From: an uncultured Schlesneria sp.
GTDB lineage: Bacteria > Planctomycetota > Planctomycetia > Planctomycetales > Planctomycetaceae
Assembly: GCA_903904835.1 (NCBI GenBank)
Contig: CAIVEI010000081.1
Span: 1-64,000 of the forward strand
Length of the DNA: 64,000 nt
Direction: 5' to 3'
In this document: one piece after another, positions 9,829 through 27,467 of the stretch
How positions within the stretch are numbered: position 1 is the stretch's first letter
How the letters are laid out: each line of letters starts with the position of its first letter
Made by a program: the position numbers and the translations under genes
The notes under the pieces: model-generated
What the model was told of the DNA's origin: nothing
Databases searched by the model: none
Seen by the model: the letters and a program-made list of their open reading frames with translations, nothing else

Positions 9829-10347
9829 TCAAGGTGTTGTCTTGAGAGACGCCGGCTCGTGAATCGGCGGTGTTCCTTCAATCAGTCGTTGCAACAGCGT
9901 TTCGTCAATTCGGCCTCGAAATCGAATTTTTCCATCGAACATGACGACCGGGATGCACGTGCAAAAACGTTTGTCTAAATCGGGATTGGAATGAATATCA
10001 ATCTCGTCAGGCGTGGGAATCCACCGATGGTATTCTGCCAAGACCTTGGCAGCCTCGTCGCATAAATGACAACCTTCTCCGACATACAGTGTGGCCGTGC
10101 GAAACCGTTGACCTGGAACAGAAGGTCGCCATCCAACGGTTTGCGCTCCTGCGTGTCCCCATAAAATCTGCCAGCCTGCCGCGGCCAGTCCCAATCCGAT
10201 GGCAATCCACATCGATTGGTTGGCATACCAGAACGCGGGAAGTCCGGGCATGCGTGTGAACAATTCGATCCCGCGTAATATGACCAGAACGATCCCTGAC
10301 CCGAACAGAACTCGCCCCACAGGTGTCAACCGGTTTTCTGCGTTCAC
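9829..10347 (-). CDS. two-helix membrane protein with glutaredoxin-like domain
   Basis: This protein of about 171 residues starts with two transmembrane helices (VLFGSGIVLVILRGIELF and SMWIAIGLGLAAAGWQILWG). A glutaredoxin-like domain of the DUF836 type follows: TLYVGEGCHLCDEAAKVL carries a CxxC redox pair, and CIPVVMFDGKIRFRGRIDE is the cis-Pro region. It probably acts as a membrane-tethered thiol oxidoreductase or electron carrier. GTG 10347 is preferred because GGAG lies about nine bases upstream; GTG 10383 gives a 184-residue version. It follows imuB on the minus strand by about 110 bp but has no known link to it. Confidence 0.72.
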   Translation of the reverse strand: MNAENRLTPVGRVLFGSGIVLVILRGIELFTRMPGLPAFWYANQSMWIAIGLGLAAAGWQILWGHAGAQTVGWRPSVPGQRFRTATLYVGEGCHLCDEAAKVLAEYHRWIPTPDEIDIHSNPDLDKRFCTCIPVVMFDGKIRFRGRIDETLLQRLIEGTPPIHEPASLKTTP

Positions 10348-10456
10348 TTCTGAAACTCCATGCGTTCCGGCACTGTCAATCACGTAATAGAATTCGTCGG
10401 TATAAGCGTATTAATGATATTGCCTGACGATTGTGATGATAGGCATTCCGGTGCTT

Positions 10457-12091
10457 TTACACGAACAAGCCGTGTAGAAACCAATCTCCGGTATCTCGAT
10501 CAACGAAGGCCCATAAGATCGCTCCGTTCGCCAGACTCAGGCGATAATAGTCTCGTTTCACATCCAGCCCGCGCCACCAGCCGACTTCAATTCGCTCGGG
10601 ACCACAGACACGAATGACGGTCGATCGCTGGACGCGGGTTGGCAGCCCTTCCGTCGAAAACTGCTGGACGACCAGTGGTTGCGGAGATCGCAATAATCGC
10701 AATGGTCGACAACGAAGATGCGAGGCAATGCCGATGGTTTCCTTCTCCGTCGATGCTGGTGCGTCGAGCCAGGGGACAGACTCGAAGGCAAACTCTGGTT
10801 GTGGGTCGGGAATCAGCCGTGGACGCAGCACCGCCTGACGACCGAGCCGCATGCTCAGCCGGTCGACCAGTTCGGCCAGTACCTGCGGATGCTCATCACC
10901 GGCATCGTCTCCAAATAAGGTCGCTTGTCGAAGAGGGGGCAAACCGACTTCGACAACTTCCATTCGTACGCCTTGGACGCCTGACATGAATACTCGCCGC
11001 TCGTTTTGCAGACGCAGCAATTCAGTCAGATGCCGCTTTTCGGTTGTCGGCCGTAAAAGGCGTAACACTGTCGGTTCCGTAACCGTGCCAAGCCAGTGAC
11101 AGGCGAGTTCACGTAATCCGGCCCGATTTGCCACAAGCCGGGTCAATAGCCGCTCTAACAAGACCTCGCAGACATGATCCAGCGTTTGACGATCAGAGAC
11201 CGGCTCTTCAAACAGCCATTCCTCAAACACCGGTTCGGCCAGCCGTTCGGCGTGCAGCAGTTCAGCAGCCAGCCCCAATGCCTGATCAATCCGCTGAACC
11301 AGTTCTTTCCCAAATCGAGACGGCAGACTGGACCGAGGGATAAGCAGCAATTGGCCAATCGTCATGACATCCAAGGATTGCAGTTTTTGCTTCACCGATG
11401 GAGTAATCCGCAGTGCCGCGACAGGCAGAGGTGAAAGCCAGTTGGTTTGTTGACCGGGTGGAACCAGTGAGATGTCCGCCTCACCATAATGACTGATTCC
11501 CCACGCCGCACCCCATGAGTCGGCAATAGCCACGCGCACCTGGATTCCTTGCTGAGCCAGATCGTTCCGCAGTTTCTCGGCCAATCCCCGTTCCCCGCCA
11601 AACAGAACTTCACTGCCCGAGATATCGAGCCACAGTGATTCAGGCGACGAAGTCTCTTCCATCCCGACAAGCGGGCTGTAAATCTGGCAATGAAGGGCCA
11701 GTTCCTGTAATCGATTCCGATCGGCAACCGGATCAGCTCGTTTCACGACCGGCAATACGGGAGGTTTTCCTCGCTGAACTCCGTTTCGACGTGTTGGCTG
11801 TGGCGTCTTGCCTGAGGGTACAGGCAAAAGCGACTGAGCTTCGCCGAGCGGCATTCCGGCACGAATTCCCCATTCGGCCGCTTCAGGAGAACAGACAGTA
11901 ACCTGAAACCCTCGTCGACCTTCAGCAAAGATGACCATCGGTCCAGGGTCTCCTGACCCCACACTGTTCTTCAACCCGGTACCGTTCTTCAACCCGGTAC
12001 CGTTCTTCAACCCCGTACCGTTCTTCAACCCCGTACTACGCAGACGCTGTATCGGCCACAGCGGAGACCAGACGCACATCACCCGTCGCAT
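10457..12091 (-). CDS. imuB: ImuB, inactive Y-family polymerase of the SOS mutasome
   Basis: The product is a Y-family DNA polymerase-like protein of 544 residues. In other bacteria ImuB lacks polymerase activity and bridges the beta clamp, ImuA and the error-prone polymerase DnaE2 after DNA damage. Family features seen are the start MRRVMCVWSPLWPIQR, the EAQSLLP stretch, VAIADSWGAAWGIS, and the little-finger region. A clamp-binding motif QATLF is present at residues 389-393. The start is placed at ATG 12091, which aligns with the family N-terminus; the frame stays open to 12289 but that part overlaps imuA. The 5' end overlaps imuA by 56 bp, so translation is probably coupled. An insert of tandem GTGLKN hexapeptides occupies residues about 19-42. 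No dnaE2 is adjacent. Confidence 0.9.
   Translation of the reverse strand: MRRVMCVWSPLWPIQRLRSTGLKNGTGLKNGTGLKNGTGLKNSVGSGDPGPMVIFAEGRRGFQVTVCSPEAAEWGIRAGMPLGEAQSLLPVPSGKTPQPTRRNGVQRGKPPVLPVVKRADPVADRNRLQELALHCQIYSPLVGMEETSSPESLWLDISGSEVLFGGERGLAEKLRNDLAQQGIQVRVAIADSWGAAWGISHYGEADISLVPPGQQTNWLSPLPVAALRITPSVKQKLQSLDVMTIGQLLLIPRSSLPSRFGKELVQRIDQALGLAAELLHAERLAEPVFEEWLFEEPVSDRQTLDHVCEVLLERLLTRLVANRAGLRELACHWLGTVTEPTVLRLLRPTTEKRHLTELLRLQNERRVFMSGVQGVRMEVVEVGLPPLRQATLFGDDAGDEHPQVLAELVDRLSMRLGRQAVLRPRLIPDPQPEFAFESVPWLDAPASTEKETIGIASHLRCRPLRLLRSPQPLVVQQFSTEGLPTRVQRSTVIRVCGPERIEVGWWRGLDVKRDYYRLSLANGAILWAFVDRDTGDWFLHGLFV
11966..12037. repeat. 18-bp in-frame tandem repeat, four copies, at the imuA/imuB overlap
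   Basis: Four copies of an 18-bp unit (GTTCTTCAACCCGGTACC and close variants) run head to tail. Because 18 is a multiple of three, they add a hexapeptide repeated four times near the ImuB N-terminus. The last copy coincides with the imuA stop codon (12036-12038). Confidence 0.9.
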
Positions 12092-12743
12092 CGCAGATTT
12101 CCAGTTCGACCGAGTCTCCTGTGCGGTATCCACCGCGACAGGAGAGAAGTTCCACTCGCATCCGCCGCCCTGCGGTTGTGATTGCCGGCCTCGGCTGGAC
12201 CAGCCAGCGCACATCAGCCCACGAGGCATACTGCGCCGCTTTCGCAGGCCGAAACAGCACCCCCACACCACCCCCCGTTTCCGCAGCAATCTTCCAGCGC
12301 TGGATCACCCGGTCAGGAAGCCGTTCGGCTTGAAACCAGGTCACTCCGATCGCCGGACAACGAAGACATTGCTCAACGGCCCACGCCGCTTCTGCAACCG
12401 ACGAAGGCCGAAGCCAAAGCAACGTCTCCAGTGAGATTCCCCAACCCCGCACGGCAGGTGGATGGAACTCACCCGTTTCATCCACCACAGCCCACACCGG
12501 CTGACGTTGCAACGCCGCTCGCACCCCCTGCAGTGCCAGTACGCTGGCTCCGCAACCCTCCACTGGAGCCAACCATTCAATGATCCAGCCTGGCTCCATG
12601 CCTCGGTCGGGTAGCAGTGCATCCAGTGCCGACAGTCCCGTCGACAACCGTGGCCGTTCGTCAAACTGCGGAGTGGCATGCCTGGTGGTTCCCTGACAAA
12701 TCCGCCGCAAAGCTCGAAGAGTCTCAGCACGCTGCGTCTCCAT
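12036..12743 (-). CDS. imuA: ImuA, RecA-like partner of ImuB
   Basis: This protein of about 235 residues is related to the RecA fold and is encoded directly upstream of imuB. ImuA proteins work with ImuB and DnaE2 in damage-induced mutagenesis. Recognisable stretches are RLSTGLSALDALLPDRGMEPGWIIEW, then LALQGVRAALQRQPVWAVVDETGEFHPPA, then TWFQAERLPDRVIQRWKIAAETGGGVGVLFR. The Walker A loop is degenerate (APVEGCGASVLAL), as in many ImuA proteins. The start is either ATG 12743, one base after the upstream transposase stop (TGAAATG), or ATG 12758, which overlaps it. An open frame to 12935 lies inside the transposase gene and is not used. The tight spacing implies co-transcription with the RAYT gene. 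Confidence 0.85.
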   Translation of the reverse strand: METQRAETLRALRRICQGTTRHATPQFDERPRLSTGLSALDALLPDRGMEPGWIIEWLAPVEGCGASVLALQGVRAALQRQPVWAVVDETGEFHPPAVRGWGISLETLLWLRPSSVAEAAWAVEQCLRCPAIGVTWFQAERLPDRVIQRWKIAAETGGGVGVLFRPAKAAQYASWADVRWLVQPRPAITTAGRRMRVELLSCRGGYRTGDSVELEICDATGDVRLVSAVADTASA

Positions 12744-12744
12744 T

Positions 12745-13203
12745 TCAATCCCAGACATAACGTTCGTCGATTTCGAGTTCGTGTTTCTGGCAGAGCTCCC
12801 GGAATTCCTCTTGATACGAATGCCGCTTGTGGTGTTCTTCCTGTCGTTCCACGTAATTGACGACTCGGTCGAGGTTAGACCGGCTGACGGAGAAGGCTCC
12901 GTAACCCGCTTGCCACGTGAATGTCGGGCTACCACTCGACGTTTTTTTGGCCCATTTCGATGTCTCAGTCTTCACATGTTCGACAAGCTTGGCGATTGCT
13001 ACCGTAGGTGACAACCCGCAGACGATATGAACATGATCAATCCAGCCACCAGTACATTGGGGGAGACAACCAAGCTCCTGCAGAGGCTGGTTTAACATCA
13101 GAAACATCTCGTCCCGAAAGCCAGGATTCTGCAGAAACACCTGGCGGTTCTTGGTACTGAAGACGAGATGCAGCCAGATTTGGGACAATGACGGAGACAT
13201 CAC
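12745..13203 (-). CDS. RAYT / IS200-like Y1 transposase (TnpA_REP type)
   Basis: This 152-residue single-domain HUH enzyme belongs to the Y1 transposase family that cuts and joins single-stranded DNA at hairpins. The HUH motif is DHVHIV (in GGWIDHVHIVCG) and the catalytic Tyr is in VVNYVERQEEHHKRH; both are intact. The opening SLSQIWLHLVFSTKNRQ is typical of REP-associated transposases. There is no partner tnpB and no obvious IS200 ends. A REP-like hairpin with a GTAG foot lies 27 bp upstream of the start (13230-13286), and a second copy is at 27369. The gene is immediately upstream of imuA and probably co-transcribed, which suggests a resident single-copy RAYT rather than a recent insertion. 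Confidence 0.88.
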   Translation of the reverse strand: MMSPSLSQIWLHLVFSTKNRQVFLQNPGFRDEMFLMLNQPLQELGCLPQCTGGWIDHVHIVCGLSPTVAIAKLVEHVKTETSKWAKKTSSGSPTFTWQAGYGAFSVSRSNLDRVVNYVERQEEHHKRHSYQEEFRELCQKHELEIDERYVWD

Positions 13204-13229
13204 AACTCACTTTCCAGAATGATCAGCCC

Positions 13230-13286
13230 GTCGTAGCATGGGCTTTAGCCCTTGCGCCACAACATCTTGGCTAAAGCCCACACGAC
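13230..13286. repeat. REP-like hairpin, copy 1
   Basis: Arms TGGGCTTTAGCC and GGCTAAAGCCCA form an imperfect hairpin with flanking GTCGT/ACGAC. GTAG lies immediately 5' of the hairpin, the foot recognised by RAYT enzymes on E. coli REP sequences. It lies 27 bp from the start of the RAYT gene. A near-identical element is at 27369-27425. Confidence 0.75.
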
Positions 13287-13502
13287 AAAAACTCAACCTC
13301 GTTGAGGCCACCTTCGTGTCGTTACCTGTCGATCCAGACCGCCCCTCATCGCGCCGTAATCACGGCATGCCTGTCGAGCTGAAAACCCCAACGATGAAGA
13401 TCGGCTTTCGCTGTTGATCCACGCCACTTAAATATGGATAACAAAAATAATATTACAGGAAACAATTGAGAATGCAATACAAGGCGAGGGGCTTAGGCGA
13501 AT

Positions 13503-13606
13503 GTAGGGTGGGTCGAGTCTTCGAGGCCCACAGTTCCGCCTATGGAAATCCCGGCGAATGAGCATACTGGTGAATTGGTGGGCCTCGAAGACTCGACCCA
13601 CCCTAC
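13503..13606. repeat. 104-bp palindromic element with perfect 29-bp arms
   Basis: Positions 13503-13531 and 13578-13606 are exact reverse complements (GTAGGGTGGGTCGAGTC... and its complement), separated by 46 bases. The arms begin with GTAG and end with CTAC, like paired REP units. It lies between the RAYT region and the 3' end of tsaE, on non-coding DNA. Confidence 0.85.
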
Positions 13607-13631: not shown

Positions 13632-14120
13632 TCAACGCGCCAGTTGCGAAAGAATTCTTCGAGACCGTTTTCCGGTCGCCAACACTTCAATTGTTCGTGC
13701 CGTCGGGCTGTCGATTGTGATCCGTATTTCCAGCCGGTCGCGCGGCAGATATTCCACAACTCGATCGGCCCATTCGACCAGAGCGATCCCGTCCGAGGCA
13801 AATAGCTCATCCAGACCAAGATCTGCAAACTCTTCCGGCGAACGGAGGCGATAAGTATCGCAATGCCGAATCGGCACGCGACCGAGATATTCTTGAATCA
13901 GCGTAAACGTCGGGCTGTTCACTTCATCTTCCGGCACATCCCACGCCTGTGCTACCGCTTTGACGAACCGGGTTTTCCCCGCACCCAGATCACCAATCAA
14001 GCCAACCACGTCACCGGCATTCAGCACGAGAGCAATCTGGCGCCCCACGGAGTTTGTCTCGGCTTCTTCGGCAACGTGGCAAACAAGGGAGTTATCGTTT
14101 TGTCGAATCCAGGTTAGCAT
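13632..14120 (-). CDS. tsaE: TsaE, tRNA threonylcarbamoyladenosine ATPase
   Basis: This 162-residue P-loop ATPase assists TsaD and TsaB in making the t6A modification at position 37 of tRNAs that read ANN codons. Visible motifs are Walker A GDLGAGKT (residues 43-50), the switch-like SPTFTLIQEY, the CDTYRL segment, and the closing LVEWADRVVEYLP. The length matches the family. It lies 12 bp downstream of the rRNA methyltransferase gene on the same strand, so the two RNA-modification genes probably form an operon. Confidence 0.95.
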   Translation of the reverse strand: MLTWIRQNDNSLVCHVAEEAETNSVGRQIALVLNAGDVVGLIGDLGAGKTRFVKAVAQAWDVPEDEVNSPTFTLIQEYLGRVPIRHCDTYRLRSPEEFADLGLDELFASDGIALVEWADRVVEYLPRDRLEIRITIDSPTARTIEVLATGKRSRRILSQLAR

Positions 14121-26071: not shown

Positions 26072-27280
26072 TTGTCAAACCGCCGTATCCTGATAATCGG
26101 AGGAAGTACGCGTGCGGCGGCAGATTCCGTGCGTCGAGCGGGCTGGGAACCGGTCTGTGCCGATCTCTTCGCCGATCAAGACTTGCGGATGACGGCTGAG
26201 GTGATCACTGTACAAAATTATCCAAATAGTCTTCCGGATGATGTGGCACACGTTCGTGCCGACGGCTGGTTTTATTGTGGAGCACTCGAAAACTCGCCAA
26301 AACTTCTCGAACGAATCTTGAAAAAAGCGAATTTCATCGGGCCGCTGCTGGGGACGTCACCCGATGGTTTAGGGATGTTACGCAATCCGGTGTGGTTGGC
26401 AAAAACGTTGGCGGGGGTTGGATTAAAGTCACTTTCCGTTGCCAGCCAATCATTTCCACCTGAACCGAACGGGACGTGGCTGCAAAAACCGCTGGCGAGT
26501 GCTGGTGGCCGAATGATTCGAGTCTGGGATGAATCGGCCGCTAAAATTCCTTTTCCGGAACCTCACTATTTTCAACAAATTGGAGCAGGGATTGGAGCAT
26601 CCGTGATTTTTCGGGTCGACTCAGGGAACATCAAGTGGCTCGGTTCCGCTCGTGAACTTGAGGCCCCGACCGAATCAGCCCCACCGACTGCGTTCTCGTA
26701 TTGCGGATCATTCGGGCCAATCGATGAACTTCTGGTCCCGGTCGAGGCAAAACTGAGGAAAATCATTCAGACTCTTGTTGAGCAAGTTCCATCGCTCGAG
26801 GGGATGGTCGGCCTGGATTTTCGATTTCACGGCGACGAGGTCTGGTTAGTCGAAGTGAATCCGCGTTACACCGCTTCGATTGAAGTGCTTGAGCTCTCAC
26901 TGGGTCGATCCTTGTTGAATCCTCAGGTGGGCGCAGGTCAAATTGACAGTATTCCGTTTACCTTGGCTGAAAAGTCGTCCTCAACTTCTCATTTTTCACT
27001 GGGTGCGAATCATCAGAATCTTAACCAGGCGCGGATCGTTGCAAAGCAGATTCTTTACGCGTCGGAATCGTTTGTCGCGCCGGATCTGCGGCAATTCGTG
27101 AACGCGAGCGATCCGTGGACAATACCGCTGATGGCGGATGTTCCCGTTCCGGGGACTTTCGTTGAACGAGGCTGGCCGATCTGCACAGTTCTGGCGTCTG
27201 GAGAAAACCGCCATAAGCTGGAAACGATAATGAAGGAACGATTGCTTGTTGTTCGGGAGGCGCTGAGGAAATCGGGATGA
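26072..27280 (+). CDS. ATP-grasp protein linked to the C1 locus
   Basis: This protein of about 402 residues starts at TTG 26072 (MSNRRILIIGGSTRAAADSV). It has a Rossmann-like N-terminus, then an ATP-grasp fold: TWLQKPLASAGGRMIRVW, then EGMVGLDFRFHGDEVWLVEVNPRYTASIEVLE, the last holding the Mg-ATP Asp/Glu/Asn residues. ATP-grasp enzymes ligate a carboxylate to an amine or thiol. Members of this group are encoded near H4MPT-dependent C1 genes in methylotrophs and planctomycetes, so a step in methanopterin or methanofuran-like cofactor synthesis is inferred. It is divergent from fae and may share its promoter region. Confidence 0.8.
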   Translation: MSNRRILIIGGSTRAAADSVRRAGWEPVCADLFADQDLRMTAEVITVQNYPNSLPDDVAHVRADGWFYCGALENSPKLLERILKKANFIGPLLGTSPDGLGMLRNPVWLAKTLAGVGLKSLSVASQSFPPEPNGTWLQKPLASAGGRMIRVWDESAAKIPFPEPHYFQQIGAGIGASVIFRVDSGNIKWLGSARELEAPTESAPPTAFSYCGSFGPIDELLVPVEAKLRKIIQTLVEQVPSLEGMVGLDFRFHGDEVWLVEVNPRYTASIEVLELSLGRSLLNPQVGAGQIDSIPFTLAEKSSSTSHFSLGANHQNLNQARIVAKQILYASESFVAPDLRQFVNASDPWTIPLMADVPVPGTFVERGWPICTVLASGENRHKLETIMKERLLVVREALRKSG

Positions 27281-27368
27281 GTGATCGAAGTCCAACCCCT
27301 TTACTGGACCCATCGACGATGGCTATTCTGTACTGTTGATGTCCACCCCATGGTCCTCCCTTGCGCCT

Positions 27369-27425
27369 TAGCGTGGGCTTTAGCCCGTGAGACACAACTT
27401 TTTGCACGGGCTAAAGCCCATGCTA
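27369..27425. repeat. REP-like hairpin, copy 2
   Basis: Arms TAGCGTGGGCTTTAGCCCGTG and CACGGGCTAAAGCCCATGCTA pair with one mismatch around a 15-base loop. On the minus strand the hairpin is preceded by GTAG. The core is identical to that of the element beside the RAYT gene at 13230. It lies about 40 bp upstream of the WD40 gene start. Confidence 0.8.
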
Positions 27426-27467
27426 CAAAAACCAACAGCCGCGCTGCCTGAATCTGGATTTGAACTT

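Follow-up and report, generated by a model that had tools for sequence, protein, structure and literature searches.

A Y1 transposase gene probably domesticated in the imuA-imuB operon of part of Schlesneria, and a family of GTAG-footed REPs in the same genome

In the published classification of TnpAY1 proteins (Quentin et al. 2018, PMC6006769), subclass 1.2 carries the signature DH[IV]H, WQ and Y---Q--HH, whereas class 2 (TnpAREP, or RAYT) has a Y motif ending in NP. Subclass 1.2 is described there as mostly cyanobacterial and bacteroidetal and as lacking REPs or IS ends, with proteins of ~150 residues, a Y1_Tnp domain and low copy number. In the REPtrons of class 2 an HUH-Y1 enzyme is kept like a host gene, flanked by its own REPs (PMC6006769, PMC8266576). 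TIRtrons have a Y1 gene (TIRYT) between inverted repeats that are also dispersed as families, and R. baltica is named among the genomes with many TIRYT-type genes and repeats (Di Nocera et al. 2013, PMC3733652). PMC8266576 raises the question of why domesticated Y1 transposases are retained in bacteria.

The window analysed here is a 64,000-nucleotide stretch from an uncultured Schlesneria sp. whose source genome (G000) comprises 8.18 Mb in 211 contigs. Four genes on the minus strand run in one direction, in the order tsaE, transposase, imuA and imuB. The features are as follows.

13632-14120, minus strand: tsaE, the farthest upstream of the four co-directional genes.
13503-13606, no strand assigned: doublet of a different GTAG repeat (GTAGGGTGGGTCGAG...); 2 matches versus 0 in 100 shuffles.
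13436-13462, minus strand: conserved element TTTCCTGTAA-N8-TTGTTATCC, upstream of transposase-imuA; both halves exact in 7 of 30 imuA loci.
13265-13286, minus strand: right REP of the first doublet, degenerate; foot GTCG, 3 mismatches in the hairpin.
13233-13254, plus strand: left REP of the first doublet; foot GTAG, then CATGGGC-TTTA-GCCCTTG; 1 mismatch to the REP.
12745-13200, minus strand: Y1 (HUH) transposase gene, 151 residues, TnpAY1 subclass 1.2-like; Pfam PF01797 (Y1_Tnp), E 4.9e-19.
12036-12758, minus strand: imuA, start at the conserved ATG 12758, alternative start 12743; NCBIfam ImuA, E 2.3e-27.
10457-12091, minus strand: imuB; IMS domain, E 7e-9; approximate start, placed by eye at an in-frame ATG.
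27368-27389, plus strand: left REP of the second doublet; foot TTAG, 2 mismatches.
27405-27426, minus strand: right REP of the second doublet; foot GTAG, exact (0 mismatches).

The original prediction described a single-domain Y1 transposase with an intact HVH motif and catalytic tyrosine, lying beside imuA and imuB, and both parts are borne out. The reading frame spans 12745-13203, with the ATG at 13200 as the likely start; the preceding codon is GTG in G000 and G002 and not in G001. The Y1_Tnp match, together with D55-H56-V57-H58, W96-Q97, Y116, Q120 and H123-H124, all invariant in 12 aligned sequences, places the protein in the TnpAY1 group of the Y1 HUH superfamily. Directly downstream are the ImuA profile match (96 bits, under that NCBIfam model's 150-bit cut-off) and the IMS domain of ImuB, whose reading frame is open from 12289. 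Within imuB, at 11966-12036, an 18-bp unit present 3.9 times gives (GTGLKN) repeats near the start of the protein. The nearest named matches come from two uncultured Schlesneria assemblies, with transposases 96–97% identical, and a PDB sequence search with the transposase returned 0 matches at E 0.01.

Compared by motif with the published table (PMC6006769), the protein agrees with subclass 1.2 in its DH[IV]H, WQ and Y---Q--HH motifs and in its length (151 residues, for a subclass of ~148), as well as in its Y1_Tnp domain and low copy number. With class 2 it has in common that an HUH-Y1 enzyme is retained in the manner of a host gene, in a genome that also contains GTAG REPs and inverted doublets. 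Its Y motif, NYVERQEEHH, departs from the YI..NP of class 2, and the gene is not flanked by REPs of its own: a doublet stands upstream in G000 only, and the G001 and G002 records have no REP in the 3 kb around the gene. Because the motifs match subclass 1.2 and not class 2, the name RAYT is too specific, and by motif the imuA-linked enzyme is subclass 1.2-like rather than the E. coli-type RAYT first proposed. It differs from the published description of subclass 1.2 in belonging to the Planctomycetota and in lying within an imuA operon. The protein also scores 55.9 bits against the NCBIfam IS200/IS605 profile (cut-off 55); it shares the transposase family with these elements, unlike which it is a vertically inherited single gene with no terminal hairpins. 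The source genome has 15 Y1 matches, several with the Y---Q--HH signature and one, L189 (G000:C19, ~9994-10362), class-2-like (DHIH, YIHWNP). With GTAGGGTGGGTCGAG... doublets on both flanks L189 looks like a textbook REPtron, and a doublet of this repeat also precedes the transposase gene of the window (13503-13606).

The order transposase-imuA-imuB recurs in relatives. At the best imuA loci of 15 Schlesneria genomes the gene is intact in four (G000, G001, G002 and G003) and a remnant in a fifth (G005); it was not found in ten, these being called gene-free from ~1.5 kb on each side, with a best imuA match only ~35% identical in G011 and G012. None of the remaining loci among the 30 imuA loci read has the gene. 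The G005 remnant consists of 39 nt of the transposase 3′ end before imuA and contains the conserved imuA start codon. Scanning for remnants at 12 imuA loci that lack the intact gene gave this one and a match of 4 of 7 residues in G007, which was taken as chance.

The gene had been placed one base upstream of imuA, which is true if imuA starts at the ATG at 12743. That codon reads ATT in G001, whereas G000, G001, G002 and G005 share an in-frame ATG at 12758, within the 3′ end of the transposase gene, so that the two genes probably overlap by 14 nt. G003 lacks the overlapping ATG, and its imuA starts ~9 nt after the transposase stop. Farther upstream, the halves of a two-part element, TTTCCTGTAA-N7/8-TTGTTATCC, are exact in seven of the 30 imuA loci; an eighth locus has 1 mismatch and a ninth has 3, and the scores of the remaining loci (4 to 8) are close to those of the reversed control (5 to 8). 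The element, possibly a promoter or operator, precedes the transposase at loci with that gene and imuA at loci lacking it, and its core occurs once per genome, at imuA, in the four genomes searched. Between G000, G001 and G002 (Nei-Gojobori script) dN/dS is 0.051–0.056 for the transposase (dS 0.26–0.36) and 0.117–0.119 for imuA (dS 0.28–0.33). As judged from these comparisons the transposase is inherited together with imuA and is under constraint at the protein level.

We consider it probable that a mobile Y1 transposase has been domesticated in the mutasome operon (imuA-imuB) of part of Schlesneria. A single-gene mobile Y1 element (IS200-like, subclass 1.2) would have inserted ahead of imuA, downstream of the control region of the imuA-imuB operon, in an ancestor shared by part of the genus, after which its terminal hairpins would have been lost and the transposase gene fixed. 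This is supported by the four intact copies at imuA and the remnant in G005, by the position of the gene behind an element that elsewhere precedes imuA, and by a dN/dS below that of imuA at similar dS with invariant catalytic motifs. In the group formed by G000, G001, G002 and G005 the 3′ end of the transposase carries the imuA start codon, an arrangement in which transposase, ImuA and ImuB would probably be made from one message and be translationally coupled. The gene is dispensable, being absent at imuA in ten of the 15 genomes and deleted in G005. Such absences also suit a passenger, that is, an inserted gene without a host role that persists by carrying the imuA translation start in a needed operon; G005 in particular dropped the gene and kept the 39 nt with the conserved start codon. 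However, a dN/dS of ~0.05 over the whole gene at dS 0.26–0.36, together with the invariant catalytic motifs, indicates selection on the protein, which is not expected of a passenger, and we regard this explanation as unlikely.

Relatives of the enzyme bear on how it came to imuA. Matching inverted hairpins flank the gene at 18 of 49 subclass-1.2-like loci versus 0 of 294 random intervals, in a test that excluded L234 as well as Y1 loci that had partial genes or were represented twice. Commonly 47–75 bp separate the upstream hairpin from the gene, and the foot is NYAG at 15 of the 18 loci (CCAG, CTAG, TTAG, ATAG, TCAG or GTAG), with L082, L083 and L196 differing. One of these hairpins is dispersed, with 60 copies in G012, 37 in G013, 26 in G011, 4 in G010 and none in six other searched genomes or the control, and forms doublets of 156–229 bp with feet outward at three of the eight loci read. 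From their sequences these relatives look like a mobile element with miniature derivatives. The hairpin arrangement of IS200/IS605 differs from these inverted, feet-outward hairpins. The relatives resemble TIRtrons (PMC3733652) in having a Y1 gene between inverted repeats that are also dispersed as families, but their hairpins are short, with mostly NYAG feet, and the imuA-linked copies lack matching flanking repeats. The statement that subclass 1.2 is generally without terminal secondary structures (PMC6006769) holds for the four imuA-linked copies and fails for the 18 loci of the same group. Neither terminal footed hairpins nor miniature elements are listed for subclass 1.2 in the published subclass table (PMC6006769), and these Planctomycetota relatives have both.

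None of the four imuA-linked copies has a hairpin pair, which fits immobilisation and, with the hairpins and dispersed miniature elements of the relatives, favours domestication. Against this, the absence is not special to the imuA-linked copies, since 31 of the 49 loci in all, and 27 of the 45 unlinked ones, lack a pair by the same test. In a tree of 44 proteins the imuA-linked copies group together with one unlinked copy (L226), and a single origin (one change) appears in 44% of 200 bootstrap trees. Both observations count against domestication as set out above, although the tree neither establishes nor excludes one origin. L226, the closest unlinked relative (70%), is on a contig labelled Candidatus Kuenenia, a label that may be a binning error. 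Ten named relatives at 34–70% identity (L226–L235) have no imuA, imuB or tsaE in their flanks, some of which are cut by contig ends. The placement of L226 and the 44% of trees would be accounted for if at least two separate Y1 insertions had occurred before imuA, G003 apart from G000, G001, G002 and G005, as would the missing overlapping ATG and the imuA start ~9 nt past the stop in G003. G000, G001 and G003 nonetheless agree in gene order and orientation and in having tsaE and the conserved element upstream, and such a gene is missing from the other loci among the 30 read for imuA, which makes separate insertions a doubtful alternative to one capture.

The hairpins near the gene form a family of their own. 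The arms lie at 13240-13279, with a similar pair at 27375-27419, and 13233-13286 is made up of two inverted REPs rather than one long hairpin unit. The REP unit consists of a GTAG-type foot followed by CATGGGC-TTYA-GCCCGTG, with a 7-bp stem and a TTYA loop. The hairpin predicted beside the gene is a doublet of this REP, in which the left foot is the GTAG noted and the right one is GTCG (13265-13286); the predicted recurrence at ~27369-27425 with GTAG is correct for the right REP, an exact copy on the minus strand, and the left foot there is TTAG (27368-27389). A 22-mer REP has 3 matches in the window (≤3 mismatches) versus 0 in 100 shuffles, and a 23-mer has 150 copies in G000 (≤3 mismatches) versus 0 for the reversed control. 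Stem variants alter both sides, from CA/TG to TG/CA, TA/TA, AA/TT or CT/AG, changes that suggest selection for a single-strand hairpin whose foot is not part of the stem.

Positions were obtained for ~100 of the 150 REP places, and statistics on feet, doublets and ORFs come from 60 loci (L012–L071). Sites with ≤2 mismatches in these loci form 47 clusters (30 single, 16 doublets and 1 triple), with feet outward in all 16 doublets, and seven of the 47 clusters lie within ORFs of at least 200 codons, as compared with 65% of 2063 random positions. Thirty of the loci were chosen with a pattern including the foot; at the other 30, chosen by core alone, the foot is GTAG in 41 of 45 sites. From 131 raw matches 72 were kept at ≤3 mismatches (62 with GTAG) and 65 at ≤2 (59 with GTAG), the rest including back-matches of the near-palindrome. 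A genome-wide, mostly intergenic distribution, which had been raised as an expectation along with a constant GTAG, therefore holds as far as copy number and position outside long ORFs are concerned, and GTAG is usual but not constant. At G000:C143:35868-36392 (L055–L058) four exact REPs in the same orientation, spaced by 167–168 bp, make a tandem array, and contig C177 has REP pairs at a spacing of ~166–167 bp.

A count in 59 genomes gave 150 REPs in G000, 60 in G001, 31 in G002, 188 in G005 and none in the other 55; the reversed control had 1 or 2 stray matches in G020, G047, G053 and G055 and none in the four REP-bearing genomes. With their high copy number, mostly extragenic location, GTAG foot with a stem-loop, and inverted doublets, these repeats have the attributes of REPs and REPINs. 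On this sequence evidence we take them to be a genuine REP family separate from the imuA-linked enzyme, which is one candidate among the possible enzymes acting on it.

The original prediction went further and paired the two, with the imuA-linked enzyme as a RAYT that recognises and spreads GTAG-CATGGGC REPs. A REP doublet does lie ~30 bp upstream of the gene in G000, the REPs are confined among the 59 genomes to four with the gene or its remnant, and GTAG fits the mostly NYAG feet of the relatives' hairpins. These four genomes are, however, closely related, so their co-occurrence says little; G005 has the most REPs with the gene reduced to a remnant, G003 has the gene and no REP, and in the records of G001 (L225) and G002 (L224) the 3 kb around the gene contain no REP at ≤4 mismatches. 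The doublet adjoining the transposase is specific to G000, and the same interval also holds the doublet of the different GTAG repeat (13503-13606) that flanks L189 on both sides, on which grounds adjacency is weak evidence. In G001 the 70 bp holding the doublet (13232-13301) are replaced by 193 bp with other hairpins, and the site is not cleanly empty. At the position of the doublet both G002 (L072 1341-1434) and G001 (L073 1324-1369) have long hairpins of other kinds, such as the CACTGCTTGACGG type. For the second doublet (27368-27426) no alignment of at least 150 bp reached the site in stretches from G001, G002, G003 and G005.

Other Y1 genes and fragments were considered as partners. Forty neighbourhoods in G000, G001, G002 and G005 have no such REP within the readable 1 kb, some being cut by contig ends and four G002 matches (C18, C161, C170 and C78) being left out, and this too speaks for the pairing; two of the neighbourhoods (L200 and L210) have a REP at ~1.1 kb. 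L189, of the NP type, was set aside as a partner, flanked as it is by the GTAGGGTGGGTCGAG repeat instead, as was a second Y1 family found by way of L190 and counting 9 matches in 5 genomes, several members of which have GTAG or GTGG hairpins that differ from this REP. L190/L236 itself (G000:C127, ~26359-26970) is Y1-like, has NHVH and a stop within the gene, and is surrounded by four GTAG-footed hairpins of the CGGCGGC-TTCCA-GCCGCCG type; the GTAG or GTGG hairpins of its relatives in G003 and G005 differ in sequence. Subclass 1.2 is also described without REPs in the published classification (PMC6006769). The pairing is not supported by these genomes, and we judge it improbable.

What is new at this locus is not a GTAG pairing but a Y1 transposase captured by an imuA operon and retained in it, and our literature searches gave no paper that connects imuA with a domesticated transposase. 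Purifying selection on the protein suggests that the domesticated gene probably has a host role, in which its HUH and tyrosine residues would cut and join hairpin-forming single-stranded DNA when the mutasome is made. More tentatively, the transposase may have been recruited as a working part of the mutasome operon, one coupled message giving ImuA and ImuB together with an HUH nuclease-ligase that would cut or rejoin hairpin-forming single strands exposed at damage-stalled replication. Position, gene overlap and selection tie the Y1 transposase here to a named repair operon, and this tie, with the natural loss in a sister species, makes the question of why such genes are retained testable. If the recruitment is true, it would be the first concrete host pathway for domesticated Y1 proteins.
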